A stretch of DNA of 64,000 nucleotides, taken from positions 310,001-374,000 of the forward strand of contig NZ_JASJOU010000007.1 of NCBI RefSeq assembly GCF_030068605.1, read 5' to 3'. The notes beneath the pieces are model-generated. The model was not told the DNA's origin. It made no database searches and worked only from the letters and a program-made list of their open reading frames with translations. Position numbers and translations under genes: made by a program. Each line of letters begins with the position of its first letter. The stretch's first letter is position 1. Below, one piece after another: positions 7,770 through 59,108 of this stretch. Source of the DNA: Xanthocytophaga agilis (GTDB lineage: Bacteria > Bacteroidota > Bacteroidia > Cytophagales > 172606-1).

Positions 7770-8546
7770 CTATCCTTTGCTCATATCCTGTATACTTTCT
7801 GTCAATAACCTATAGATTCGTTGTTGTAACGGGTAATCTTTCAGATAGCGTACATGATTAGCAATTGTTTGTTCGTCGCCTCGTATGGCAGGTCCGGTTT
7901 GAACAGTAGCAGGATTATCAACAGCTAATGCTTTTGTAAACGTTTCTTCGATAAGGGGTTTGAGCAGAGAAAACTCTAACCCTTCACGTTCAACAATATT
8001 ACGAGCTACAGCCATCAGGTGATTGGAGAAATTACAGGCAAATACAGCTCCAACATGCAGTATCTTCCGTTCGTCAGAGCTAACCAGGTATACTGTTTTG
8101 CTGATGCTTTGTGCCAGTGCCACAATGTATTCTTCTGTTCTATCATTACTGGCTTCTAAACAAAACGGTACCTTCTGAACATCTACATGCCTGCTTTTAC
8201 TAAATGTCTGTAAGGGATAAAAAACTCCCCGATCAGGAAAAGGTCGCAAGGTAGATAATGGCAATGTTCCAGAGGTATGACACAAGATAGCACCTTCCGG
8301 AAGGATACAGCTGTCAGCAATCCGTTCTACGGCATCATCAGGAATGGTAATGAAAAAAATATCTGCATCACTAGCTGTAAAGTCAAGTGTATTTACAGCC
8401 TGCGCATCGTATAGATTTCGTGTCAATTCTTTTGCATGACGTATATCACGGCTATATACCTGCCGTATGGAGTGCCCTGCATCTTCCAGAGCCTGTGCTA
8501 AATGCCAGGCAACATTGCCAGCACCAATAAAGGAGAGTTTTGCCAC
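7770..8546 (-). CDS. Rossmann-fold DUF2520 protein (putative NADP-dependent oxidoreductase)
   Basis: The 258-residue product begins with a dinucleotide-binding loop, FIGAGNVAWHLAQAL (about 6-20), as in the F420/NADP oxidoreductase-like Rossmann family. The C-terminal half (HVGAVFACNFSNHL through GPAIRGDEQTI) matches DUF2520, which resembles the helical dimerisation domain of pyrroline-5-carboxylate reductase and ketopantoate reductase. The substrate is unknown. It is convergent with the acyltransferase gene, with 3 bp between stop codons. Confidence 0.85.
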   Translation of the reverse strand: MAKLSFIGAGNVAWHLAQALEDAGHSIRQVYSRDIRHAKELTRNLYDAQAVNTLDFTASDADIFFITIPDDAVERIADSCILPEGAILCHTSGTLPLSTLRPFPDRGVFYPLQTFSKSRHVDVQKVPFCLEASNDRTEEYIVALAQSISKTVYLVSSDERKILHVGAVFACNFSNHLMAVARNIVEREGLEFSLLKPLIEETFTKALAVDNPATVQTGPAIRGDEQTIANHVRYLKDYPLQQRIYRLLTESIQDMSKG

Positions 8547-8607
8547 TTTGTATTTCTTTCAAATTTCAATGTACAAATAAATCAAAGTTTGGTATAAGTA
8601 GAAAAAC

Positions 8608-8651
8608 AATCCCCTCCTGAATTTCTGTGTTAAGAGCTTCAGGAGGGGATT
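8608..8651 (-). terminator. Intrinsic terminator of the GLPGLI gene
   Basis: A perfect 14-bp stem (8608-8621 with 8638-8651) with a 16-base loop is followed on the minus strand by TTGTTTTTC. It lies just past the stop codon of the minus-strand gene at 8672. Confidence 0.8.
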
Positions 8652-8671
8652 CAAACTGTCAACTTTTTATT

Positions 8672-9412
8672 CTAGTACCTAATCATCCAATAGGGATTAC
8701 GTTCTTCTTTTATTTTTTCTTTGATGAACTTATCAAGCATCTTTTCATACGCAGTCTCTGTTAACTTAGTTCCTTTCATCTTTTTAGGCAAATCCAGTTC
8801 CTGAGTCAGCTTTTTATTTTCAATACGGGAAGCTTCAATGGTGACAGTCCCATCGTTGATATCCAGAGCCAGAATCATTCCGGGGAGCCCATATGAACGT
8901 TCCGGACCAATATTAGAAGGAATATCCTGTGCAAACCAGGCAACAATCTTTTGCTTCTTCACTGTATCTTCTTTCATTGCCTTCATACAAATATGTCCGG
9001 CCACATCCTTCAGGTCATTCATAATCTTCCAGTTTTGTGTACCAAGCGAGTCTTCAATGATATACGTTTTTCCTACCATCTCAATAATATCTACCATTGT
9101 ATTCTTCTCAAAATCACGTTTTACCACATATTGTTCCTTGCGCCAGTCATAGCCAGAAGATTCAGCCGGCTTTTCATCCGAATAGGTATACTTGCTTGAT
9201 TTGTCATTAAAGTATAACACCATATACTCTTTCCAGTCATCGCGCCCGCCCCACATATAGGCATTCCGTTCTTTTTCCTGTTTGCTCAGAAATGTAAGCT
9301 GATTGATCATTTTAGTCCAGTAGGTAGTTCGGGTATAGTGTACGATTCCTTCCTGCTGGGCGGATGCAGCAACGGATAAAAGCAGTGTAAACAAGAGCAC
9401 TAATTTCTTCAT
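8672..9412 (-). CDS. GLPGLI family protein
   Basis: This 246-residue protein has a signal peptide (MKKLVLLFTLLLSVAASAQ). The family's namesake motif appears as SYGLPGMILALD (about 175-186). GLPGLI proteins are exported Bacteroidota proteins of unknown function, very often encoded beside TonB-type outer-membrane beta-barrel proteins, as here: the receptor gene lies 53 bp upstream on the same strand. Joint transcription and a shared envelope role are likely, but no ligand can be named. Confidence 0.9.
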   Translation of the reverse strand: MKKLVLLFTLLLSVAASAQQEGIVHYTRTTYWTKMINQLTFLSKQEKERNAYMWGGRDDWKEYMVLYFNDKSSKYTYSDEKPAESSGYDWRKEQYVVKRDFEKNTMVDIIEMVGKTYIIEDSLGTQNWKIMNDLKDVAGHICMKAMKEDTVKKQKIVAWFAQDIPSNIGPERSYGLPGMILALDINDGTVTIEASRIENKKLTQELDLPKKMKGTKLTETAYEKMLDKFIKEKIKEERNPYWMIRY

Positions 9413-47228: not shown

Positions 47229-48572
47229 TTAAGCTGATAGCATAGATTCTAAAGCCTGACTGGCAATGTGTCTGTTCTTATGCTGTGTTATCAAATTCAA
47301 AATGTAGCGTTCACAGGTTACATTGGTATCATATCGTCCAAACTCTTCGCCTAACTGATTTACATTTTTCTGATATGTATTGTCAGACAAAACTTTTTCG
47401 ACACTTTCTCTAACTTGACGAGGGGTGGGAGTTTCTGTTTTTAAGTTTATACCCAGTTTAAAGTATCCGATTCTGGCGTTGATTTCATTTTTACCTTCAT
47501 GTACACCCGCTACTACCATAGGCAGTCGGTTTTGCAGACTTAATAACACACCACCATATCCCCCATTGGAAACATACACATCTGCAATAGGCATAACCAT
47601 AGTAAAGTCTATAAAATCCTCGATCACAATATTTTCCTGTGGATATCGCTTTCTCAATTCCTGGGTTTTAGAACCGCCTGTTGTAACAATCAGTAAGTAT
47701 TCTGTACCTTTGAATGCTTCAAGAGTAGGAACCAAAAGTTTCTCAGCATCACGCTCTACTGTGCCTTGAGTTGCCAGGATCACCTTTTTATATCGTTTCA
47801 ATAATTCTCTGTACTTAAACTCTCCGATATTCTGTCCAGTCTGGAAGGGTAATAAAGGTCCAACAAACTTTACATGTGCACTCATATCACTGCGTTTGTA
47901 TTCAAACCCAGGAACGCCACTCTGTAAAAGCAAATCTGCCTGTTTTACACCAATATCGAAGATTGTTCCTTTTACCGGAGGAATCTGAAACTGTGCCAGT
48001 ACTTTATTATACTGTTGTGTGCTATGCTTAAATAATACGTGTGTTGCCAGAAAACGTAAAAAATCCTGTTTTCTACGTCCCCAGAAACTTGAAGAGGGAG
48101 TCAGTCCCATACCCGTTGGAGGTAAATCAACGGAAAATTCAGCCAGAGGCATAATTCCCATACTTACACAGGGCACATGCAGCTTTTCGCGTATGATCTG
48201 AGCAGCAGGAAAAGCATTGTCATAAACAAGTACCTCAAATTCAAATTCTTTATAGATTTTAAGAATATCTGCGGTGTATTCTGGTGCACGCAATACAAAT
48301 ACCTGATCAATATCAAACTTCAGCTTACTAACTATACTTTTGTATTTATGGCGCTCTGGAAATAACTCGTCTATCGTATGCTGATTCACTTCCAACGCTT
48401 TCTGAAATCTGTAATGTGGAATCTCTAACTTTTTCAGCTTCTCGGTAAATATATTACCTGTATACCACCGTACATCATGTCCTTGCTGCAAAAGATGTTT
48501 AGCTAAAGAGGTGAGTGGATTAAAATGTCCATCTAATGGCATTGTAGCAAATAATATTTTTCTGGCTTTCAT
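47229..48572 (-). CDS. UGT/MGT-type glycosyltransferase (family 1)
   Basis: This 447-residue GT-B enzyme starts with KILFATMPLDGHFNPLTSLAKHL, the acceptor domain of macrolide-glycosyltransferase-like proteins. The donor-binding C-terminal half has TQGTVERDAEKLLVPTL, then VSNGGYGGVLLSLQNRLPMV; the usual HGG of the UDP-sugar signature reads NGG here. The acceptor may be a hydrophobic natural product or lipid. It lies between the small unknown gene at 48616 and the lipocalin-like lipoprotein gene. Confidence 0.85.
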   Translation of the reverse strand: MKARKILFATMPLDGHFNPLTSLAKHLLQQGHDVRWYTGNIFTEKLKKLEIPHYRFQKALEVNQHTIDELFPERHKYKSIVSKLKFDIDQVFVLRAPEYTADILKIYKEFEFEVLVYDNAFPAAQIIREKLHVPCVSMGIMPLAEFSVDLPPTGMGLTPSSSFWGRRKQDFLRFLATHVLFKHSTQQYNKVLAQFQIPPVKGTIFDIGVKQADLLLQSGVPGFEYKRSDMSAHVKFVGPLLPFQTGQNIGEFKYRELLKRYKKVILATQGTVERDAEKLLVPTLEAFKGTEYLLIVTTGGSKTQELRKRYPQENIVIEDFIDFTMVMPIADVYVSNGGYGGVLLSLQNRLPMVVAGVHEGKNEINARIGYFKLGINLKTETPTPRQVRESVEKVLSDNTYQKNVNQLGEEFGRYDTNVTCERYILNLITQHKNRHIASQALESMLSA

Positions 48573-48615
48573 AGTTGTAGTATATGTGTGTAAAAGAAAT
48601 AGTGATGGAAATAGC

Positions 48616-49041
48616 CTATAGATGATAGAGAGCAGTCAAAGTGATGATGCAGGAAAGAGACAGACCATTCTCATAAATTTTTGTAACAGCTTTTAACGTG
48701 TCTTCTGTCAGTTCGAGAATCTTCAAGCCTGTTATAGTCTCTAATTCCTGGTCTCCAAATAATTGAATCACATTAGACAGGTCATCATACGCCCAGTTGA
48801 ACAACTGTTCATTACGTTTGCCATATTCTCCTTTCAGACGGCCATCAGGTTGAAAGATAATAATGTCATTGCGGGTTCGCTGAGGTATATGCTGCAGCAA
48901 ATCAGAAGCCTGGCCTATTCCTGTATCTAGAGCCAGAGAGGTAATCTGCCACTTTTTGCCAACAAAAGAAGGAATCTCAGCAGAGCTTGTTTCCGGCTTG
49001 ATAAGCCATGTCATGTTTTTTGTGTTTACAATAGTTGTCAT
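48616..49041 (-). CDS. Lipocalin-like cytoplasmic protein, unknown function
   Basis: This 141-residue protein has no signal peptide. Its strand pattern (KKWQITSLALDTG, then IIIFQPDGRLKGEYG, then FNWAYDDLSNVIQLFG, then LKILELTEDTLKAVTK) resembles the lipocalin-like lipoprotein at 46669, so the two may be distant homologues. The match is visual and weak. It is first in the cluster and ends 43 bp before the glycosyltransferase start. Confidence 0.6.
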   Translation of the reverse strand: MTTIVNTKNMTWLIKPETSSAEIPSFVGKKWQITSLALDTGIGQASDLLQHIPQRTRNDIIIFQPDGRLKGEYGKRNEQLFNWAYDDLSNVIQLFGDQELETITGLKILELTEDTLKAVTKIYENGLSLSCIITLTALYHL

Positions 49042-49240
49042 AGTTGTAAATGTGTAGTATTAAAACTTTGTAGAAGCTTGATATAAAGTCATTTACTAGC
49101 TTCTTCAGTAAAAATATACACACAGACAGGGATCATCAATTTACACCATGCCGAACCGTTACATTTTATGTTTTGATTGTTTCATTCTGTCTGTTAACTG
49201 TACAGAGTTTATAGGCATTCTTAACACTATGACATATAAA

Positions 49241-49278
49241 AAAATGGGTAGTATAGAACAATCTATACTACCCATTTT
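49241..49278. terminator. Bidirectional terminator after the LytTR regulator gene
   Basis: A perfect 16-bp stem (49241-49256 with 49263-49278) has a 6-base loop and A/T tracts on both sides. It lies about 20 bp beyond the stop of the minus-strand gene at 49300. Confidence 0.92.
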
Positions 49279-49299
49279 TTTATATATTTTATGATTTAC

Positions 49300-50061
49300 T
49301 TATTTGCCCATCCACTCTTTAAAATCTGAGACTTTCTCTCTACTAACCAGCACTTCCTTATCACAGACAGGCTTTAATGTCAATGCCAACCGATTACCAA
49401 AATAGTTTTGGATCTGATCAATAGTGGTTTGTGAAACAATAAAAGATCGGTTAATCCGAAAGAAGTATTTGGGATCCAGTTCAGTTTCCAACTCATCCAT
49501 AGTATAATCGACCAGAAATTTCTGATTAGAACGGGTGCGGAAGAAACAAAAGCGGTCTTCCATAAAAAAATAGGCAATATCACTGACTTCAAATGATACC
49601 AGTCGTTGTCCCTGTTTAACTAAAAACCGTTTTCGATAGTCACGGGTTTGTACCTGTAATTCTCTGATCAGCTTCTCAATATTGATCATAGAAGGCGAAG
49701 ATTGATTTTGCAGATGATTAAACTTCTGCAAACTACGCTGCAAATCTGCTTTTTGAATTGGTTTGAGAAGATAATCAATACTATTTACCTTAAAAGCCTG
49801 AATTGCATATTCATCATAGGATGTAGTAAAGATGACAGGGCTTGTCACTTCCGTCTGTTCAAAAATTTCAAAACTTTGCCCATCGGCTAGCTCTATATCC
49901 ATCAGTATCAAATCGGGTGCAGGATGCTTATCAAGCCAGCTAACAGACTCACGCACACTACCTGCCACTCCGACAATATCAATTTCCGGATCAATTTCCT
50001 GTACAGTACGCTGCAGCTTTCGCACAGCAAGATCTTCGTCTTCAATAATTAATATTTTCAT
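49300..50061 (-). CDS. LytTR-family response regulator
   Basis: The 253-residue protein has an N-terminal receiver with D55 (LILMDIELADG) as phospho-acceptor, E7-D8-E9 and K102-type LLKPIQK, and a C-terminal LytTR DNA-binding domain (about 140-250, KRFLVKQGQRLVSFEVSDIAYF and KYFFRINRSFIVS). It overlaps the upstream kinase gene by 20 bp, so translation is coupled. It is the only regulator beside three LytS-like kinases and presumably serves at least one of them. Confidence 0.93.
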   Translation of the reverse strand: MKILIIEDEDLAVRKLQRTVQEIDPEIDIVGVAGSVRESVSWLDKHPAPDLILMDIELADGQSFEIFEQTEVTSPVIFTTSYDEYAIQAFKVNSIDYLLKPIQKADLQRSLQKFNHLQNQSSPSMINIEKLIRELQVQTRDYRKRFLVKQGQRLVSFEVSDIAYFFMEDRFCFFRTRSNQKFLVDYTMDELETELDPKYFFRINRSFIVSQTTIDQIQNYFGNRLALTLKPVCDKEVLVSREKVSDFKEWMGK

Positions 50062-51094
50062 GGTTAACGCCCATTAAAGGTAAAGTTACAACACATTCAT
50101 TTTCAGTAGTTTTTATAGCAACAGAGACTTTGCCTGTCAATTCGTATTTAGCAATCAGATCTGATAATTCCTGATCTTCATCTAAAACTTTGCGTTTTTT
50201 AGGTTGTATATTATAACGGATTACCAAATCTCTTTCATCAGTTTCTATATAGAACCTCAAGGGTTGTTCTTTGGAAATTACATTCTTTTTCAACGCTACA
50301 TCTATGATATTCTGCAAAGTCAGAGGTATTAGTAAAGCAGCATTTACATCTGGTCTAACTGACAAAGAGCAAGTTATGCCTTCCCCATACCGGCTTTGCA
50401 ACAAATAGAAATAAGACCTTAGAAAATCCAGTTCTACAGACAGGGGTACCCACTCATTGGTAGTACTTCGTAGCATATACCTATACACTTTTGCCATCTC
50501 ATCAAGGAACAATTCAGCCTGCTCCGGATTATCACTGATAAGGGATGACAAAGAAGTAAGAGAATTAAAAAGAAAATGAGGATTGACCTGTGTTTTTAAT
50601 GATTCAAGTCTTTGCTGCAGTTGGGTTTTCTTTAGCTTCTCATTTTCTTTTACACGTTCCTCCCATTGTTCAAAAATATATTTCCCTTCATAAATACAGG
50701 TTGTCAGAATATTGGATACAGCCCCAAAGACCAGTGCCAGTTTTACTCTCTCCCATGATAAAGTATAATCCAAGAAACCAATGGTTTCAAAAATCCATAC
50801 AACTCCTATCTGAATTAACACTGTCAATACAATAAAAAGCCCTGCTTCCATAAGAATACGCTGAAACGCCTGTCCATAGCTGGAAAATCGATTTCGTATT
50901 GCCAGTGCAATCCTTGTAAAAACCTTAATAACGAAGAACCAGATAAGTTGCAATACAAGACTTGCCAGCAGAAATGTCTTTATATCACTGTAGTAATATT
51001 TTCTCAATAACAATGTATTCAAAACCAGGCTAACGAAAATGGATACAAACAAATTAATCCATTTATCCTGACGTGTAAACTGAGTTTCTTTCAT
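50042..51094 (-). CDS. LytS-like sensor kinase with degenerate ATP-binding site
   Basis: The 350-residue protein has about four membrane helices (1-135), a coiled-coil linker and the His_kinase domain with H173 in VNPHFLFNSLTSL. The ATP-binding N-box reads D265-V-A-L-K-K-N271 where the paralogues have ENAVKHN; the first Asn is lost. The later glycine segment GLNNI of the paralogues reads ELSDL here. It may have weak or no kinase activity, or act as a sensor in a heterodimer. It overlaps the LytTR gene by 20 bp. Confidence 0.88.
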   Translation of the reverse strand: MKETQFTRQDKWINLFVSIFVSLVLNTLLLRKYYYSDIKTFLLASLVLQLIWFFVIKVFTRIALAIRNRFSSYGQAFQRILMEAGLFIVLTVLIQIGVVWIFETIGFLDYTLSWERVKLALVFGAVSNILTTCIYEGKYIFEQWEERVKENEKLKKTQLQQRLESLKTQVNPHFLFNSLTSLSSLISDNPEQAELFLDEMAKVYRYMLRSTTNEWVPLSVELDFLRSYFYLLQSRYGEGITCSLSVRPDVNAALLIPLTLQNIIDVALKKNVISKEQPLRFYIETDERDLVIRYNIQPKKRKVLDEDQELSDLIAKYELTGKVSVAIKTTENECVVTLPLMGVNHENINY

Positions 51095-51206
51095 AGTATT
51101 TATCCAGCTGGAATTGAAGATATCAGCATTCTTCTGATCTATAAAATTCAGAGTAGGCTAATACACATTTTTAACCGACAAACTGTATAATTTTATGTTT
51201 CAATTG

Positions 51207-52274
51207 TTAATGTTGATGTGCGATATCTATTATCTTAGTATAGATATACTCATTGCCAATCAAAGGAATTCGGATGATAAAAAAGACAGCATCTGACTCG
51301 ATAACTGGTTCCGGTTGTTTAAGGAGCTGGTATTTGGTAATGATATTGTTCAATCCTACTTTGTTGGAAACTACTTTCAGATTCTTTTTCTGCACATTAT
51401 TCTGTACTACCAAATATCCTTTTTCTACATAGATCTGAATTACCAAAGGCTGATCTTTCAAAATGATGTTGTGCTTGACAGCATTCTCAAGCAAGATCTG
51501 TAAGGTTAAGGGAGGCAATAAATATTGTTCATAGCCACTTAGATTCTCTAACTTTAACTGAATACTTTCTCCATAACGGGTTTTGAGCAAATGAAAATAC
51601 GATTCTACAAACTGAAGTTCGGTTTGCAGAGAAACCAGTTCCTGTTCATTATTTCTGAGCAGATACCGATAGACATTACTCATTTCATCCAAAAACTTTT
51701 CTGCTTGTTCGGGCTGCTCGCGAATCAAAGAAGACAACGAATTTAAACTATTAAACAAAAAATGAGGATTGATCTGGCTCTTTAGTGAGTCGAATCTTTC
51801 CTGCCATTGTATATTCAGAAGTTTTTCTCTCTCATAATACACAATCTTCCATTGTTCAAATACATACAATCCCTCATAGACACCTACATATATACAATGG
51901 TAGAATATCTGAATACCTGTTGTATAGGTGTAATCTGCCAGTGTTGGCCAACCTATAGGCTGATCATTAATATACAAATGAGTAAAGTATCTGAGAAAAT
52001 AGGCTATATGTACCAATAACGGAAATGCCAGGGCAATATACTTTAGTCGTTGACGGGTACGATGAAAACCAGGATATCTCTTTTGTATTGTTAGGATCAC
52101 CCATCGAGACAGATTCCAACATATGTATCCATATATAATGGCAATCGACTGAAAGCGTATAATAAAAGGTAAGTCATGCTCAAAATATATATTCAGTCTG
52201 AAAAAGAGACTTCCTATCATGAAAACCACCAAAGGTCCTATAAGTCTCAAGGTTCGGTCTTTATATGAATTCAT
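51207..52274 (-). CDS. LytS-like sensor histidine kinase (copy A of shared catalytic block)
   Basis: The 355-residue protein has a membrane region (about 10-135) unlike its neighbours, then the His_kinase domain with H171 (INPHFLFNSLNSL) and the ATP-binding box ENAVKHN, and a short divergent tail from about residue 322. Residues 162-321 are identical to residues 171-330 of the adjacent kinase, and the DNA is nearly identical too. It overlaps the upstream kinase gene by 4 bp and lies 112 bp before the degenerate kinase. Confidence 0.92.
   Translation of the reverse strand: MNSYKDRTLRLIGPLVVFMIGSLFFRLNIYFEHDLPFIIRFQSIAIIYGYICWNLSRWVILTIQKRYPGFHRTRQRLKYIALAFPLLVHIAYFLRYFTHLYINDQPIGWPTLADYTYTTGIQIFYHCIYVGVYEGLYVFEQWKIVYYEREKLLNIQWQERFDSLKSQINPHFLFNSLNSLSSLIREQPEQAEKFLDEMSNVYRYLLRNNEQELVSLQTELQFVESYFHLLKTRYGESIQLKLENLSGYEQYLLPPLTLQILLENAVKHNIILKDQPLVIQIYVEKGYLVVQNNVQKKNLKVVSNKVGLNNIITKYQLLKQPEPVIESDAVFFIIRIPLIGNEYIYTKIIDIAHQH
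51311..51791. repeat. 481-bp direct repeat, copy A
   Basis: Bases 51311-51791 match 52354-52834 at every position I compared except one (C at 51327, T at 52370), a silent change. The copies are 1043 bp apart in the same orientation and lie inside the kinase genes at 51207 and 52271. Confidence 0.95.
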
Positions 52275-53344
52275 GAATGTATAGTAGTAAACTGCGATTC
52301 TATCAAAGGAATCATTACCTCGAAAATATTCTTTGACTCTGTTATTTTTACGTCCGGTTGTTTAAGGAGTTGGTATTTGGTAATGATATTGTTCAATCCT
52401 ACTTTGTTGGAAACTACTTTCAGATTCTTTTTCTGCACATTATTCTGTACTACCAAATATCCTTTTTCTACATAGATCTGAATTACCAAAGGCTGATCTT
52501 TCAAAATGATGTTGTGCTTGACAGCATTCTCAAGCAAGATCTGTAAGGTTAAGGGAGGCAATAAATATTGTTCATAGCCACTTAGATTCTCTAACTTTAA
52601 CTGAATACTTTCTCCATAACGGGTTTTGAGCAAATGAAAATACGATTCTACAAACTGAAGTTCGGTTTGCAGAGAAACCAGTTCCTGTTCATTATTTCTG
52701 AGCAGATACCGATAGACATTACTCATTTCATCCAAAAACTTTTCTGCTTGTTCGGGCTGCTCGCGAATCAAAGAAGACAACGAATTTAAACTATTAAACA
52801 AAAAATGAGGATTGATCTGGCTCTTTAGTGAGTCAAACTGAGTCTGTAGATTACTACGTTGCAGAGTTTCGGCTTCCTGAAGAGCAATACCATACAGATG
52901 AAAGTAGTAAATAAACTCATAGATAATACCCAAAATACAGTTGTATACTATGCCAGAAATAAAAAACAGATAGCATACAGGAAATTGTTCAGAGGTATCA
53001 CATCCGAGGAAAGCAACTGGTACTATTTCTAATTCTTTAACCAGCCCAAAACCAACCAGCCGAACAAGAAAACCACTAACAATATAGCCTGAGAAAGTGT
53101 AAATAATTCGGGGCAAAGTTTGTGCAATTTCTGAATAGTTCTTGCGAATATAGATAAGCCATACCCGTGCAACCTCCCAGGCAGCAATAAGCAGGATGAC
53201 TGCAGTCAGGTATAATTTGATCCCCAGTATCCAGTTGGTAGGATAAAGTGACGAAAACTTATATATATGAATAGGTATCGGCGCCAATGGAAGTCCAAAC
53301 ATTCTTAACCATTTATCATAAAGAGGCTCTATCCGATAACCCAT
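52271..53344 (-). CDS. LytS-like sensor histidine kinase (copy B of shared catalytic block)
   Basis: The 357-residue protein has its own N-terminal membrane region (about 35-150) with two Cys residues in an extracytoplasmic loop (FLGCDTSEQFPVCYLF). H180 lies in the NPHFLFN motif, and residues 171-330 are identical to residues 162-321 of the next gene. The tail after 331 differs again. Its stop overlaps the next start by 4 bp, so the two are translated from one message. It begins the kinase cluster. Confidence 0.92.
   Translation of the reverse strand: MGYRIEPLYDKWLRMFGLPLAPIPIHIYKFSSLYPTNWILGIKLYLTAVILLIAAWEVARVWLIYIRKNYSEIAQTLPRIIYTFSGYIVSGFLVRLVGFGLVKELEIVPVAFLGCDTSEQFPVCYLFFISGIVYNCILGIIYEFIYYFHLYGIALQEAETLQRSNLQTQFDSLKSQINPHFLFNSLNSLSSLIREQPEQAEKFLDEMSNVYRYLLRNNEQELVSLQTELQFVESYFHLLKTRYGESIQLKLENLSGYEQYLLPPLTLQILLENAVKHNIILKDQPLVIQIYVEKGYLVVQNNVQKKNLKVVSNKVGLNNIITKYQLLKQPDVKITESKNIFEVMIPLIESQFTTIHS
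52354..52834. repeat. 481-bp direct repeat, copy B
   Basis: Partner of 51311-51791. The edges fall inside codons for the linker before the NPHFLFN motif and the YQLLKQP segment near the C-terminus, so only the catalytic core is copied. Confidence 0.95.
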
Positions 53345-53592
53345 AAAAACAGGAGAAAAGATCGTATATAATTACTGATTCAATAAAGTATACAAACACT
53401 TCAATCATTATCCTACAAACATGATTTGTTTATAGGCAAATACAAACTCTCTCGTCTGGGTATACTTTATCAAATTAAAAATACTATGATTAGAGGCAAT
53501 AAGTAAATGTAAGATAGTACAAAGAGGCAAAATTGGGCCGTCAGTTGACAAAAAAGTAGTCTGAATTGTTGCGACCTATAATCTATAGGTCA

Positions 53593-53635
53593 CAATAAAA
53601 GAGAGCATTGATCAGGTCAATGCTCTCTTTTATTG
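53593..53635. terminator. Strong terminator after the NlpC/P60 gene
   Basis: A perfect 19-bp stem (53593-53611 with 53617-53635) and 5-base loop carry an internal A4/T4 run. It lies about 25 bp past the stop of the minus-strand gene at 53660. The symmetric flanks would allow termination on either strand. Confidence 0.88.
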
Positions 53636-53659
53636 TATAATGTATTTATAGAAGTGTTT

Positions 53660-54304
53660 TTATTTATCAGATGTATCTTCTCCTACAGAGTCACATGGAT
53701 CTATTAATGAAACACAATCAGCAGCGGGAGTGCAGGATTCGGCAATTTCTATAGCTGGAATTGGAAGCTCAGAATCTATCAACCGGATACTTTTTACAAA
53801 ACGCGGATTATAATATTTAGAGTCAATGGTTTCGATAGAAATTCCATTATTTACAGAAGCATGGATAAACTGGATTTTTTCTCCTTTAGCAGAAATTACA
53901 ATACCAACATGTCCGATTACTTTACTTTTGCGATTACGGCCTTTGAAGAAAATCAGATCTCCTTTCTGCATTTCGGCTGTTTCTACCTTTTTACCAACAG
54001 TAGCCTGCCCATAAGAGGTACGTGGCAGTGAAAATCCAAAACGAGAAAAGACATGTGATGTAAAGCCTGAACAATCAAATCCTTTGGCAGAATGGCCTCC
54101 TGAACGATAAGGTACGCCCAAATAATTTTTAGCGTAACTAATTAAACTATCAAGAACCAGAGGAGATTCGTCATCTTGTTTTGTACTATCAGCCGGGCCT
54201 AAATAGGCGTAAGATGAATTAGTGAAGATAGCTGCGGCTGTAGTTGATGAGCATACAAGGCAAGAAAGAAATAGTAAACCTGAAATCAGTAATAATTTTG
54301 TCAT
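53660..54304 (-). CDS. NlpC/P60 (C40) peptidase
   Basis: The ATG at 54304 (214 residues, MTKLLLISGLLFLSCLVC) begins a signal peptide; an in-frame ATG at 54355 would precede it with 17 polar residues. The C40 domain has the catalytic Cys in AKGFDCSGFTSHVF, the His in VIGHVGIVIS and a third polar residue in IQFIHASVNNG. Such enzymes cut gamma-D-Glu-diamino acid bonds in cell-wall peptides. A polar tail with several Cys residues (about 190-205) follows the domain. Confidence 0.88.
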   Translation of the reverse strand: MTKLLLISGLLFLSCLVCSSTTAAAIFTNSSYAYLGPADSTKQDDESPLVLDSLISYAKNYLGVPYRSGGHSAKGFDCSGFTSHVFSRFGFSLPRTSYGQATVGKKVETAEMQKGDLIFFKGRNRKSKVIGHVGIVISAKGEKIQFIHASVNNGISIETIDSKYYNPRFVKSIRLIDSELPIPAIEIAESCTPAADCVSLIDPCDSVGEDTSDK

Positions 54305-54564
54305 AACACCTGTTTTCAAATGATTGAGGAAGCTAAACCATCCCGGTTGCCTCACTCCTAAATACGTATTTTGCTTGCTTCGATACTAGCTGGGTTTAAA
54401 AACGTTGTAAAGTACGTAAAAGTAAAAGAGAGAGTTTCGCAGAAATGTTGATAATTTTCTACATTTTCTACAAAAGTCTTACATAGAAATGAAAAGTTTA
54501 CTCGAAGAAAGGAAGTACTTTTATAGGGCTATTTTGCTGATTAATAGATTATAGCGTAAAAAAA
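54305..54564. other. Intergenic region between the C40 and rhodanese genes
   Basis: This AT-rich stretch lies upstream of the C40 gene. It holds no credible ORF. A TACTTTAC near 54412 on the minus strand is a poor -7 candidate. Confidence 0.35.
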
Positions 54565-54581
54565 GCCTTTTATTTAAAGGC
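54565..54581 (-). terminator. Weak terminator of the rhodanese gene
   Basis: A 6-bp stem (54565-54570 with 54576-54581) is followed on the minus strand by TTTTTTT. Its short stem lowers confidence, although the T-tract is good. Confidence 0.55.
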
Positions 54582-54619
54582 CAAATATTACATAAAACAG
54601 TTTTTTCCTTTGGTTACCC

Positions 54620-54946
54620 TCAATACCACATCATAGCCTGATCTATTTCAATCGCCCAGGCGTGAAGTCCTCCCCTTAATATGGAAAGGTTAGTAAATCC
54701 ATGAGTTTTATTGAGGTATTCAAATGCTAAAGTACTCTCAATTCCATGATGGCAATAGATTATGACAGGCAAGTTTCTGGATAATTGCTCATAGTAAGAT
54801 GGCAGTTCCTCAAGCGGTATATGTATTGCCGCTTTTATATATCCATTTTTATATTCTTCCTGTTCACGCACATCCAACAATTGAAATTGCATCCCCTGAT
54901 TCATAATCTTCTTTAATTCCTGGACTGTGATTTCGTTGCCTTCCAT
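54620..54946 (-). CDS. Rhodanese-like domain protein
   Basis: A single rhodanese domain of 108 residues: LLDVREQEEYKNGYI (about 18-32), then HIPLEELPSYYEQL, then the active-site loop IIYCHHGIESTLAFEYL with Cys at about residue 70. It is cytoplasmic with no signal. Rhodanese domains transfer sulfane sulfur or act as binding modules. It stands alone, with no sulfur-metabolism neighbours, so its partner is unknown. Confidence 0.88.
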   Translation of the reverse strand: MEGNEITVQELKKIMNQGMQFQLLDVREQEEYKNGYIKAAIHIPLEELPSYYEQLSRNLPVIIYCHHGIESTLAFEYLNKTHGFTNLSILRGGLHAWAIEIDQAMMWY

Positions 54947-55092
54947 AAACCCACAATATTTATAAAATTACATTTATACAAAAAAATATTTATTATATCA
55001 TAAAAATAAATTTATTTTATGAATTTTTCAATATATTGTTTAAATAATTTTATAACAAAGTACCAGTGATCAAAGTTCTTATGTTCAATCAA

Positions 55093-55959
55093 TTAGGCAG
55101 AAAGGCTTCCACACATCATTCTAGGTTTTCCAAAAAGGTCGTGCCGAATAGTAGTATGTAATCCAAATGATTGCATGAGAGTCGATGTCTCTTGTGAAAA
55201 ATGCTCATTTAGTTCAACAAAAAGCTTTCCCCACTCTGGTAATGAAGATTGACTAAAGGATGCGATAACTTTGTAAAATAAAAGAGGATCATCATCTGGC
55301 ACAAATAAAGCCTGGTGAGGTTCATAAGCAATCACATTTGTCAGCATTTGTTCCTTTTCTGCTATTGTTACATAAGGAGGGTTGCTGATTATATAATCAA
55401 AGTATACAGGAAACTCTTCAGGAAGATTACCTGAAAGAATATCCATTTGCCGAAAATGAACTGTAACATGTTGTAACCGAGCGTTTTGCTCTGCGATAGA
55501 AATAGCACCACTCGAAATATCAATGGCCCATACTTCAGACCCAGGTATTTCTGCAGCCAGCGAAACCGCAATACACCCACTTCCTGTACCAATGTCAAGT
55601 ATACGGCAATTTTTAACGGGTGCTGATTTATACTCTTCCAGTACCCATTCTACCAGCTCTTCTGTTTCAGGGCGGGGAATCAATACATGAGAATTTACCC
55701 GAAACGTTCTTCCCCTAAATTCTGTTTCTCCTAAAATATACTGAATAGGTTCATGTCGTAACAAACGGGCAATCCAATCGTTAAAGTCTTTTGCTGCAAC
55801 ACTGGTTATGACTTTGTCTGTCACAATTGACGTTTTTGTTAATCCAAGTTTATTCTGCAACAACCAAAAAGTTATTGAACGAGCCTCTTCCGGTTCATAA
55901 ATTGAACTGATTACATGTGTAATATGATCAAATAATTGACGCGCAGAAGTGGTTAACAT
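55093..55959 (-). CDS. prmC: Release factor glutamine methyltransferase PrmC
   Basis: The ATG at 55959 (288 residues, MLTTSARQLFDHITHVI) gives the usual PrmC length; in-frame codons upstream to 56052 would add 31 residues. The N-terminal helical domain is followed by the SAM-binding ILDIGTGSGCIAVSLA and the catalytic IISNPPYV (NPPY). PrmC methylates Gln in the GGQ motif of release factors RF1 and RF2. RibD is divergent, with 97 bp between starts. Confidence 0.93.
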   Translation of the reverse strand: MLTTSARQLFDHITHVISSIYEPEEARSITFWLLQNKLGLTKTSIVTDKVITSVAAKDFNDWIARLLRHEPIQYILGETEFRGRTFRVNSHVLIPRPETEELVEWVLEEYKSAPVKNCRILDIGTGSGCIAVSLAAEIPGSEVWAIDISSGAISIAEQNARLQHVTVHFRQMDILSGNLPEEFPVYFDYIISNPPYVTIAEKEQMLTNVIAYEPHQALFVPDDDPLLFYKVIASFSQSSLPEWGKLFVELNEHFSQETSTLMQSFGLHTTIRHDLFGKPRMMCGSLSA

Positions 55960-56056
55960 GGTATAATAATTACAGTCAAGAAACAAAAATAGTATCTTTC
56001 TGCCGATAAATACTCTTAAATGTATAAAACCTTTCGATCTATAATTCAACAATCAC

Positions 56057-57139
56057 ATGATTCACAATCAGATACCAACAGACATTCATTTTATGCGACG
56101 GGCACTAGAACTAGCCAGCCTTGGCCAGGGCTCTGTAAGTCCCAATCCTATGGTTGGCTGTGTGATTGTACATAACAATCGGATTATTGGAGAGGGGTGG
56201 CATCAGAAGTATGGTTCCTGGCATGCAGAAGTAAATGCTATCCACTCTATACAAGAACATGATCTGGAGTTACTTCCTGAAAGTACTGTATATGTAACCT
56301 TGGAACCATGTACTCACTTTGGCAAAACGCCTCCCTGCTCGGATTTATTAATCGAAAAAAAAGTACGCCGTGTAGTGATTGCCAATGTAGATACAAATCC
56401 ACTAGTTGGTGGAAAAGGAATTGAAAAACTTAAGAATGCAGGTATTGAAATTACTACAGGTATTTTGGAAAAGGAAGCCAGATGGCTCAATCGTCGTTTT
56501 TTCACATTCATTGAAAAAAGCCGACCCTATATTATACTAAAGTGGGCTCAAACAGCAGATCACTTCATTGCTCGTTTAGATTTCAATTCCCGCTGGATCA
56601 GCAATGACTGGTCAAGAAGATTAGTACATAAATGGAGAGGTGAAGAGCCAGCTATTATGGTTGGCACAACTACAGCCCAATATGACAATCCTCGTCTTAA
56701 TGTCAGAGATTGGACAGGTGAAGATCCCGTACGCATTGTTATTGACCGGCATCTTCGGTTATCTCCTTCTTTACACTTATTTGATCAGACACAAACAACT
56801 TTATGCTATAACTTGAAGAAAGATGAATCCAGGGAATACATACAATACATAAAGTGTGCAAGTGAGTCCACATTTTTAGCAGAGATGATGGTAGATCTGC
56901 ATCAGCGGAAAATACAATCCGTTATTGTAGAAGGAGGAAGTAAATTTCTACAGGAACTCATTTTATCAGACCTGTGGGATGAAGTTCGTGTATTTACTTC
57001 TGATCAAACATTTGGTACTGGTATTGCCGCACCTGCATTTGGAGGGACTCTCATAGATAAAATTTCTATAAAAAAAGATCAACTATTAGTCTTCATTCCA
57101 GTTACAGATTCTTATAAACAAAGCATTTACACCAGATAA
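56057..57139 (+). CDS. ribD: Riboflavin biosynthesis protein RibD (deaminase/reductase)
   Basis: The 360-residue bifunctional enzyme has an N-terminal zinc deaminase (H56-A-E58 in WHAEVNAI, C85 and C94 in PCTHFGKTPPC) and a C-terminal DHFR-like reductase (about 145-350, with YIILKWAQTADHFIA and VEGGSKFLQELI). It deaminates and then reduces the ring-opened pyrimidine from GTP cyclohydrolase II. All metal ligands are present. It is monocistronic with a terminator at 57251-57279. Confidence 0.95.
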   Translation: MIHNQIPTDIHFMRRALELASLGQGSVSPNPMVGCVIVHNNRIIGEGWHQKYGSWHAEVNAIHSIQEHDLELLPESTVYVTLEPCTHFGKTPPCSDLLIEKKVRRVVIANVDTNPLVGGKGIEKLKNAGIEITTGILEKEARWLNRRFFTFIEKSRPYIILKWAQTADHFIARLDFNSRWISNDWSRRLVHKWRGEEPAIMVGTTTAQYDNPRLNVRDWTGEDPVRIVIDRHLRLSPSLHLFDQTQTTLCYNLKKDESREYIQYIKCASESTFLAEMMVDLHQRKIQSVIVEGGSKFLQELILSDLWDEVRVFTSDQTFGTGIAAPAFGGTLIDKISIKKDQLLVFIPVTDSYKQSIYTR

Positions 57140-57250
57140 ACAAAAAACTATTTCTTTAACTGCTTTCACCTAACATGCTAAGGCTCAATACTTGTTTGCT
57201 TATCTAGTAAAAATCTGTAACATTTGTATTAGAAAATCAGTTAAAGCCAG

Positions 57251-57279
57251 CTGTGAAACCCTGATTTCACAGTTTTTTT
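57251..57279 (+). terminator. Terminator of ribD
   Basis: An 8-bp stem (57251-57258 with 57265-57272) and a 6-base loop are followed by seven T on the plus strand. It lies about 110 bp after the ribD stop. Confidence 0.82.
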
Positions 57280-57378
57280 ATCTTTAAATCTTACTTAAAA
57301 GAGAAAAGCCCTAAATAACAAGGTTTTTGTAAGGTAAAAGATTCTATTTTACAACTATAAATCAGGAAGGACAAAATC

Positions 57379-58107
57379 ATGATTGAAAACAACAAAATAA
57401 GTATAGAAGAACGGAAAATACGGGATGCTTTTCAAGCCAGAGACTGGAATGAAATAAAGAGTAATGACTCATGGGCCGTTTTTAAGATAATGTCAGAATT
57501 TGTAGGAGGTTTTGAAAAGCTTGCCAAGATAGGTCCATGTGTGTCTATTTTTGGTTCGGCCCGTACAAAACCAGACAACCCGTATTATAAAATAGCAGAA
57601 GAAATTGCAGCGAAGCTGGTAAGACATGGGTACGGGGTTATTACAGGAGGTGGTCCTGGTATCATGGAAGCAGGTAACAAAGGGGCTTTTGAGCAAGGTG
57701 GAAAATCAGTTGGTATTAATATTGTGTTACCTTTTGAGCAAAGCAGTAATATATATATTGATCCGGATAAGCTAATCAGTTTTGATTACTTCTTTGTACG
57801 TAAAGTAATGTTTATTAAATACTCACAGGGATTTGTGGTAATGCCGGGAGGTATGGGTACACTGGACGAGTTATTTGAAGCTATTACTTTAATACAGACT
57901 GAAAAGATTGGACGTTTCCCGATTGTACTTGTCGGTAAATCATATTGGCAGGGATTACTAAACTGGATTGAAGAAGTTGTATTAGGTCAGGAACGGAATA
58001 TTAGTCCTGATGATATGCGTCTTATCAATCTGGTTGATACACCTGCAGAAGCAGTAAAAGTCATAGATGATTTTTACTCAAGGTATTTGTTGCAACCTAA
58101 CTTTTAA
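57379..58107 (+). CDS. LOG-type phosphoribohydrolase (TIGR00730 family)
   Basis: The 242-residue protein has the LOG signatures GGGPGIMEA (90-98) and PGGMGTLDE (156-164) in a Rossmann-like fold. Family members hydrolyse nucleoside 5'-monophosphates, and some (LOG) activate cytokinins; in bacteria the general role is purine-monophosphate hydrolysis. Its N-terminal extension (1-50) is longer than in minimal LOG proteins. The lytic transglycosylase gene starts 2 bp after its stop, so the two are coupled. Confidence 0.92.
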   Translation: MIENNKISIEERKIRDAFQARDWNEIKSNDSWAVFKIMSEFVGGFEKLAKIGPCVSIFGSARTKPDNPYYKIAEEIAAKLVRHGYGVITGGGPGIMEAGNKGAFEQGGKSVGINIVLPFEQSSNIYIDPDKLISFDYFFVRKVMFIKYSQGFVVMPGGMGTLDELFEAITLIQTEKIGRFPIVLVGKSYWQGLLNWIEEVVLGQERNISPDDMRLINLVDTPAEAVKVIDDFYSRYLLQPNF

Positions 58108-58109
58108 CT

Positions 58110-59108
58110 TTGAGAAAGACCCAACTTATCGCTGTTCTGATTCTGGCATTCCTTCTGGTAGGTTATGGCATTTATGTCAAACTATCAGAGGAATTTAATT
58201 TTAACTTTACATTCAATACTGGTCCTCAATTCTATTCATCAGAAAATCCCCCAGATCAAATTTATTTCGCAGGTGAAACTGTTCCTCTGGAAGACAAAAA
58301 AGTTTCCCGTCGATTTGCCAAAGAATTAAAATCACAAACGTATTGGCATCCAGCCAGAGCTGTTATGCTGGATAGAGCACATTTCTGGCTTCCACATATC
58401 ACGGCTATTCTTAAACAATACAAAGTACCAGAAGATCTGAAATATCTGGCGGTTGTAGAAAGCGGTTTACAAAATGTAGACTCTCCCAAAAATGCAGGTG
58501 GATTCTGGCAGATTATCCCACAAACAGCCCGTAACTATGGGTTAGTAATCAATGATGAGGTAGACGAACGTTACCATCCGCTTCTGGCTACTCAGGCAGC
58601 ATGCCGATATCTGCAAAGTGCCCATCTTTTGTTTAGCAGTTGGACAAATGCAGCTGCATCATACAATGCAGGCATTAATGGAATGACTCAGGCTATGTTA
58701 CGCCAGAGGAAAAGTTCGTTCTATCAACTAAAACTCAATCAGCAAACAACCGATTATATCTTCCGGATACTGGCAGTAAAACAACTTGTTGAACATCCTA
58801 AGGAATATGGGTACAAAGTAAGTCGTCACTCTACACTTAATTCCAGGATACGAATGATCAAGGTTAATAAATCTATCCCGAATCTGACAGCCTTTGCTCA
58901 ACAATATGGTATTACCTATCAGACACTTCGAAGTTATAATCCCTGGATCAAAAAGAATACCCTGACTATTAAGAAAAAAAGTTATATTTTATTAATCCCA
59001 CGCAAAAATACTCCCAAACCACCCTTACGCGCGTCCAAACCTATTGTACCAGAGACAACAGGCACGGCTTCTTCCAAACCAAAGGAGTCCAATGCCAATG
59101 AGTATTAA
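58110..59108 (+). CDS. Membrane-anchored lytic transglycosylase with LysM domain
   Basis: A TTG at 58110 is the only sensible start: it is 2 bp after the previous stop and begins a signal-anchor (MRKTQLIAVLILAFLLVGYG). The 332-residue protein has an SLT domain with catalytic E117 (VVESGLQN), GGFWQIIPQTARNYG and SYNAGING, then a LysM-type segment (about 250-300, TAFAQQYGITYQTLRSYNPWI) and a Pro/Ser-rich tail. It cleaves the MurNAc-GlcNAc bond of peptidoglycan in the periplasm, as in MltD-like enzymes. Confidence 0.9.
   Translation: MRKTQLIAVLILAFLLVGYGIYVKLSEEFNFNFTFNTGPQFYSSENPPDQIYFAGETVPLEDKKVSRRFAKELKSQTYWHPARAVMLDRAHFWLPHITAILKQYKVPEDLKYLAVVESGLQNVDSPKNAGGFWQIIPQTARNYGLVINDEVDERYHPLLATQAACRYLQSAHLLFSSWTNAAASYNAGINGMTQAMLRQRKSSFYQLKLNQQTTDYIFRILAVKQLVEHPKEYGYKVSRHSTLNSRIRMIKVNKSIPNLTAFAQQYGITYQTLRSYNPWIKKNTLTIKKKSYILLIPRKNTPKPPLRASKPIVPETTGTASSKPKESNANEY

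Follow-up and report, generated by a model that had tools for sequence, protein, structure and literature searches.

Introduction

The chemoreceptors Tlp2, Tlp3 and Tlp4 of Campylobacter jejuni are paralogues whose sensory regions are about 30% identical and whose signalling domains are identical (PMC9769880). Their authors write of domain duplication and divergence, and in the portions of the paper available here the term 'gene conversion' is used once, for conversion to a pseudogene (PMC9769880). In FasBCA of group A Streptococcus, two kinase-like proteins serve one regulator, and these have been proposed to form a heterodimer, with FasC as a pseudokinase partner that contributes its histidine (PMC12675982). 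BtsS/BtsR and YpdA/YpdB combine kinases of one output-domain class with LytTR regulators, and the two similar systems are present in the same cell (PMC5552118). Gene conversion has itself been described in a two-component regulatory gene, ntrX of Ehrlichia ruminantium, with a nearby partial copy as the partner (PMC9937504), and it has been remarked in general terms that recombination or gene conversion may be favoured where two-component genes are numerous (PMC4603909).

The locus described here lies in a 64,000-nucleotide stretch of Xanthocytophaga agilis DNA (the window) and comprises three tandem histidine kinases, C, B and A, beside one response regulator; B and C have almost identical catalytic cores joined to dissimilar membrane halves. 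It differs from each of the above. The Tlp proteins are chemoreceptors, not kinases (PMC9769880). In FasBCA no identical shared core is described in the sections of the report consulted (PMC12675982), whereas the window holds two intact, core-sharing kinases and a degenerate third. BtsS/BtsR and YpdA/YpdB are separate kinase-regulator pairs (PMC5552118), whereas here three kinases without a Pfam sensor match adjoin a single regulator. In E. ruminantium a parent gene and a partial inverted duplicate are involved and function is lost (PMC9937504), whereas the copies in the window are in direct order with intact frames. In the open-licence literature, as far as its text was accessible to us, we found no paper on gene conversion between sensor kinase cores, which leaves absence from print unproven. 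Recurrent core homogenisation in tandem histidine kinases was not found in our searches of that literature; shared signalling domains and two-component gene conversion are each already known.

Organisation of the kinase array

The four genes are tightly packed on the minus strand in the order C, B, A, regulator (Table 1). With PF06580 scores of 83.1 (A), 91.5 (B) and 92.1 bits (C) against a curated cut-off of 25.2, all three kinases belong to the PF06580 (LytS/YehU-type) family. The regulator contains both receiver and LytTR domains and adjoins the kinase array, which makes this a LytTR two-component locus. No Pfam sensor domain scored above its cut-off in the membrane halves of A, B and C, the single sub-threshold match, in B, being to an unrelated repeat family. 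The membrane sensor domain of LytS-type kinases carries the model name 5TM-5TMR_LYT; it was absent from all three in a Pfam search at E 0.1, so that they are not LytS proteins in the strict sense.

Table 1. Features of the array, numbered from the first base of the window
Feature	Coordinates	Strand	Description
Kinase C	52271..53344	(-)	357 aa, opens the array; core shared with B, membrane half and tail its own; open reading frame; PF06580, E 2.7e-26
Kinase B	51207..52274	(-)	355 aa; overlaps C by 4 bp; open reading frame; PF06580, E 4.2e-26
Kinase A	50042..51094	(-)	350 aa; candidate pseudokinase, outside the homogenised block
LytTR-type response regulator	49300..50061	(-)	overlaps A by 20 bp; PF00072 and PF04397
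Shared core block in C	52353..52834	(-)	DHp plus the greater part of the ATPase domain; 482 bp that match 51310-51791 at all but one base
Shared core block in B	51310..51791	(-)	residues 161-321; H-box PHFLFN, N-box ENAVKHN, G-box VGLNN

The structure models are of medium quality (pTM 0.46 for B, and 0.48) and were used for domain limits alone. That of B (pLDDT 77) has about four helices in the membrane half, followed by a long helix leading into the DHp domain and then the ATPase domain. The only solved relatives found by sequence at E 0.01 are 6swj/6swk. The ATP-binding N-box (ENAVKHN) and G-box (VGLNN) are intact in both B and C.

A core block shared by kinases B and C

When the two genes are compared at an offset of 1043 bp, they agree throughout the block except at one position (base C at 51327, base T at 52370), a silent CAG/CAA change at the 18th base, near the block's end. 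The rest of the two genes is 34% and 31% identical at the same offset on the two sides, so that the block is sharply bounded. The original prediction had described a catalytic block of 481 bp, starting at 51311 and with one silent difference, and had equated residues 162-321 with 171-330, between strongly different membrane regions and tails. The silent mismatch and the dissimilar flanks stand as described; the run is one base longer, starting at 51310, and its product one residue longer, the 161 identical residues being 161-321 of B and 170-330 of C. The description as catalytic also needs slight qualification. On the model of B, the block takes in the closing part of the signalling helix, the DHp helices that bear the histidine, and the ATPase domain up to and including the G-box helix. 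The last strands of that domain, near residues 324-337, are predicted to fall outside it.

Comparison with Xanthocytophaga flavus

Xanthocytophaga flavus YF14B1 (locus L067) has the same array in the same surroundings, with intact overlapping frames. Its B and C cores are alike at 474 of 482 positions, and both are unlike the cores in the window. When the 482 block sites of the four genes are compared, 39 group the sequences by species, none groups them by paralogue, none is crossed and nine are changed in a single gene (one in C of the window; five in B and three in C of X. flavus). Most of the species-grouping sites (33/39) are synonymous, and the paralogues are thus closer within a genome than to their orthologues at silent sites. 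Outside the block the pattern is reversed: 275 sites group the sequences by paralogue and none by species, and the flanks thus keep separate orthology. The probability that all 275 of these sites would avoid a given stretch of 470 sites is about 10^-89, corrected for position. We conclude from this reversal that the block was homogenised in both lineages after their split. Two controls behave otherwise. Over the core of a second tandem pair (L164/L165; 462 sites), 194 sites group by paralogue, none by species, six otherwise and 262 are unvaried, and A compared with B over the whole length yields 405 paralogue-grouping, one species-grouping, three crossed and 149 other sites.

The conversion anticipated by the original prediction is supported, but as a process repeated in at least two lineages as against one recent copying. 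The prediction had held that relatives sharing the same core at comparable identity would speak against it. Taken literally, X. flavus is such a relative, but both of its copies carry a different core sequence, which points to concerted evolution and strengthens the conversion reading. Of the three genomes available for the genus, two yielded the array and the remaining one is an assembly of 72% completeness; with only two array-bearing genomes the number of homogenisation events is a minimum. A DNA search for the array in five other genomes of the family returned short matches only in four and none in one, a search that more diverged arrays would escape.

The synonymous divergence (dS) that separates the B core from the C core amounts to 0.010 for the window and 0.053 for X. 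flavus, compared with 0.51-0.53 between the species. These ratios would place the last homogenisation within about 2% (window) and 10% (X. flavus) of the species divergence; with the sensor dS of 0.12-0.23 as the clock, the figures become roughly 5-9% and 24-46%. Between the species the cores exceed the sensor halves in dS (0.12 and 0.23), an excess that has no unique explanation. Across the 12 kb at 47229-59108, compared with L067, dS runs from 0.07-0.08 (55093-56052, 53660-54355) up to 1.15 (48616-49041), a mosaic that suggests recombination between species. As neighbouring genes range from 0.07 to 1.15, a core dS of 0.51-0.53 is not locally unusual, and we do not read it as a sign of foreign origin. 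Five of the eight differences between the X. flavus B and C cores fall at the block's 5' end, at gene B positions 486-504, consistent with a start of the last tract slightly further in.

Ancestry of the sensor halves and cores

Separate quick trees were built for the sensor halves and the cores of 67 kinases from the window and 32 chosen loci, and AU tests were carried out on 63 of these, four long or distant rows having been dropped. The sensor half of B falls in a clade of 22 rows (support 99) with the third kinase of the Larkinella arrays and with kinases of Fibrella, Telluribacter and others; C is absent from this clade. That of C falls in a different group of 15 rows (support 86), which includes the first kinase of the Larkinella arrays. 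The AU test rejects a single clade of B and C sensors (p 1.6e-5), whereas in the core tree the two kinases are sisters with support 100; cores together and sensor halves apart is the outcome for which the original prediction had looked. Core trees that place B among the Larkinella B-types (p 5e-5) or C among the Larkinella C-types (p 0.0018) are likewise rejected. An exclusive sensor clade of C with the Larkinella C-types is also rejected (AU p 0.03), which counts against our reading as regards the exact orthologue of C. A sensor clade that unites B with only the Larkinella B-types does not appear in the tree, but the test does not reject it (p 0.295).

The B and C cores group with neither Larkinella type. 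Their nearest relatives in the quick tree are kinases of genome G023 and of Chitinophagaceae, several of which carry A-like sensors; as support here is only 86-91, we name no donor.

Distribution of homogenised cores

We found no third copy of the block in the same genome, where the next best matches reach 67% identity along 324 bp and 71% along 148 bp, besides a 25-bp stretch that is identical. A third donor copy was considered and rejected, since neither the genome search nor an all-against-all comparison of the 43 kinases revealed one. The latter set derives from 44 kinases, one of which was dropped for want of a recognisable H-box, and B and C form its only pair with more than 85% identity over at least 60 bp.

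The loci examined, most of them picked for their resemblance to C and so not sampled at random, contain 44 adjacent same-strand kinase pairs. The B/C pairs of the two Xanthocytophaga genomes are the only ones to stand out (98.4 and 99.6% over 485 bp). The best match in 41 others is at most 82.5% (126 bp); for the pair in L140 it is a 52-bp gene overlap only, and the L140 cores are unscored.

A second tandem kinase pair with a LytTR regulator occurs in both Xanthocytophaga genomes (L164 5185-8012 and L165 1184-4011), and its cores are not homogenised. Apart from this pair and the array itself, the kinases of the two genomes yielded no tandem pair. The regulator of the second pair is, at 68%, the best X. 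flavus DNA match to the regulator of the window after the orthologue.

Origin of the shared core

The observations are very probably accounted for by concerted evolution, in which the B/C core would be repeatedly homogenised by gene conversion beneath sensors of separate ancestry. B and C would descend from old, different sensor lineages, and the DNA of the DHp/ATPase core would have been exchanged by homologous recombination between two direct-repeat copies, that is, by intragenomic gene conversion, separately in at least two Xanthocytophaga lineages after their split. The abrupt loss of homology at the membrane half and at the tail would mean that the core alone is copied and that each kinase keeps its own input.

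Other routes to a shared core are less satisfactory. The adjacency, common strand and similar length of B and C might suggest a recent tandem duplication with fast divergence of the sensors afterwards, but the sensor trees and AU tests refute this, with B in a well-supported clade without C and the joint clade rejected, and sensor-half divergence between the species is slow; we regard it as extremely improbable. A single conversion predating the species split, followed by strong constraint on the protein, would agree with the conserved core protein and is refuted by the silent sites, since most species-grouping changes are synonymous and no block site groups by paralogue; its probability is close to nil. 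An assembly artefact, in which the repeat was collapsed or misjoined, deserves consideration because both assemblies are fragmented (66 contigs in one and about 60 in the other, with a NODE/coverage name in the title of the X. flavus contig), differences inside a 482-bp repeat can be lost when an assembler collapses it, and the one mismatch in the window lies near the block's end. A collapse, however, would not yield 39 species-specific differences common to both copies; gene order is the same in both genomes with overlapping frames intact, and X. flavus retains inner core differences at gene B positions 624 and 832. We judge an artefact very unlikely.

Two alternatives carry more weight. In unequal crossing-over, a chimeric kinase would be gained by recombination between the two cores and a copy later lost, so that the core would become homogenised with no need for non-reciprocal copying. 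Direct repeats at a spacing of 1043 bp offer a suitable substrate and the outcome would look the same, but in each genome this core occurs in two full kinases and no more, both with a sensor and tail of their own, and no third copy is left; this route seems unlikely, if conceivable. Neutral homogenisation rivals only the functional part of the conversion reading. It supposes that similarity near the H-box began the process, that identity then fed on itself and that the shared core is of no benefit. The block limits lie where homology is lost, and selection for sameness is not visible in sequence by itself; yet L164/L165, whose best match is 82.5% over 126 bp, is not homogenised, nor are the other pairs with an informative match. 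We consider neutrality a substantial possibility that falls somewhat short of probable.

Kinase A and other degenerate kinases

Kinase A keeps its H-box, but its N-box reads DVALKKN as against ENAVKHN and its G-box QELSD as against VGLNN. It is the only one of the 43 kinases of its genome to have lost the N-box asparagine, and the X. flavus copy (L067 8251-9303) is degenerate at the same places. In medium-quality models, the predicted elements of A resemble those of B; the N- and G-box motifs are lost in both species. A is a candidate pseudokinase.

An intact kinase is present in every one of 28 tandem arrays, and in 22 of them it is accompanied by one or more kinases whose N- or G-box is weakened. 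Counted by protein, such boxes occur in 22 of 73 tandem kinases as against five of 86 that stand alone; the motif rules are our own, eight of the arrays are from Larkinella and hence not independent, and the single kinases were retrieved by likeness to an intact kinase. A query with a degenerate kinase against 148 genomes of the class gave, counting best matches only and flanks of about 1.5 kb, 30 loci. Two of these contain a clearly degenerate kinase, one being A of the window, each beside a kinase with the EN..KHN box; the other 28 have one kinase apiece, with an EN..KHN box. Under the stricter rule applied to the 28 arrays, one box is weakened in four of these 28 loci (L244, L250, L261, L265) and in the second kinase of L237, so that the contrast rests on the clear losses.

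Arrays that pair an intact kinase with one that retains its histidine box but whose N- and/or G-box is decayed are those of the window (50042-51094), L067 (8251-9303), L071, L074, L075, L077-L079, L091, L097, L110, L116, L125, L131-L133, L135, L137, L138, L140, L143 and L155; L237 is a further case. Their make-up suggests that tandem LytS-type arrays of Bacteroidota may include heterodimer or pseudokinase partners, and such intact-plus-degenerate kinases render heterodimer models directly testable.

Functional implications

Paralogous kinases are held to diverge at the output interface, avoiding cross-talk. In two lineages B and C present the opposite of this usual view, the inputs staying apart while the output core is re-copied, and the pair offers a clean, datable case for asking if a shared output is selected. 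It also cautions that orthology among tandem kinases can be masked in trees of the core domain.

The adjacent LytTR regulator is the likely shared output of the array. Selection might favour or tolerate a shared core if B and C feed this one regulator, possibly via dimers with A, and an interchangeable core would then be useful; we put this at slightly less than an even chance. From the degenerate state of A and the parallel with FasBCA, we infer that B and C may be two inputs to one output, with the core kept exchangeable by conversion. A more specific proposal is speculative and, on balance, unlikely: selection would act through gene conversion to keep a single exchangeable catalytic cartridge beneath both sensors, B and C would have to be able to form mixed dimers together or with A in front of one regulator, and interface mutations would spread to both copies, which would change together. 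If this were true, the array would act as a device with two inputs and one output, its interface and partner co-evolving in concert.

Possible core exchange in other lineages

At L085 and L105 (both 8198-9247) and L091 (7047-8096), a B-type sensor half (support 99) is joined to a core that groups with C-type cores (support 92). The combination may reflect an earlier exchange of cores in Telluribacter and a Flavobacterium. In a Ferruginibacter assembly (L070 4853-7014), an overlapping kinase pair has cores that are 73.5% identical over 344 bp and very different sensor halves, and is perhaps an older case of the same homogenisation process.
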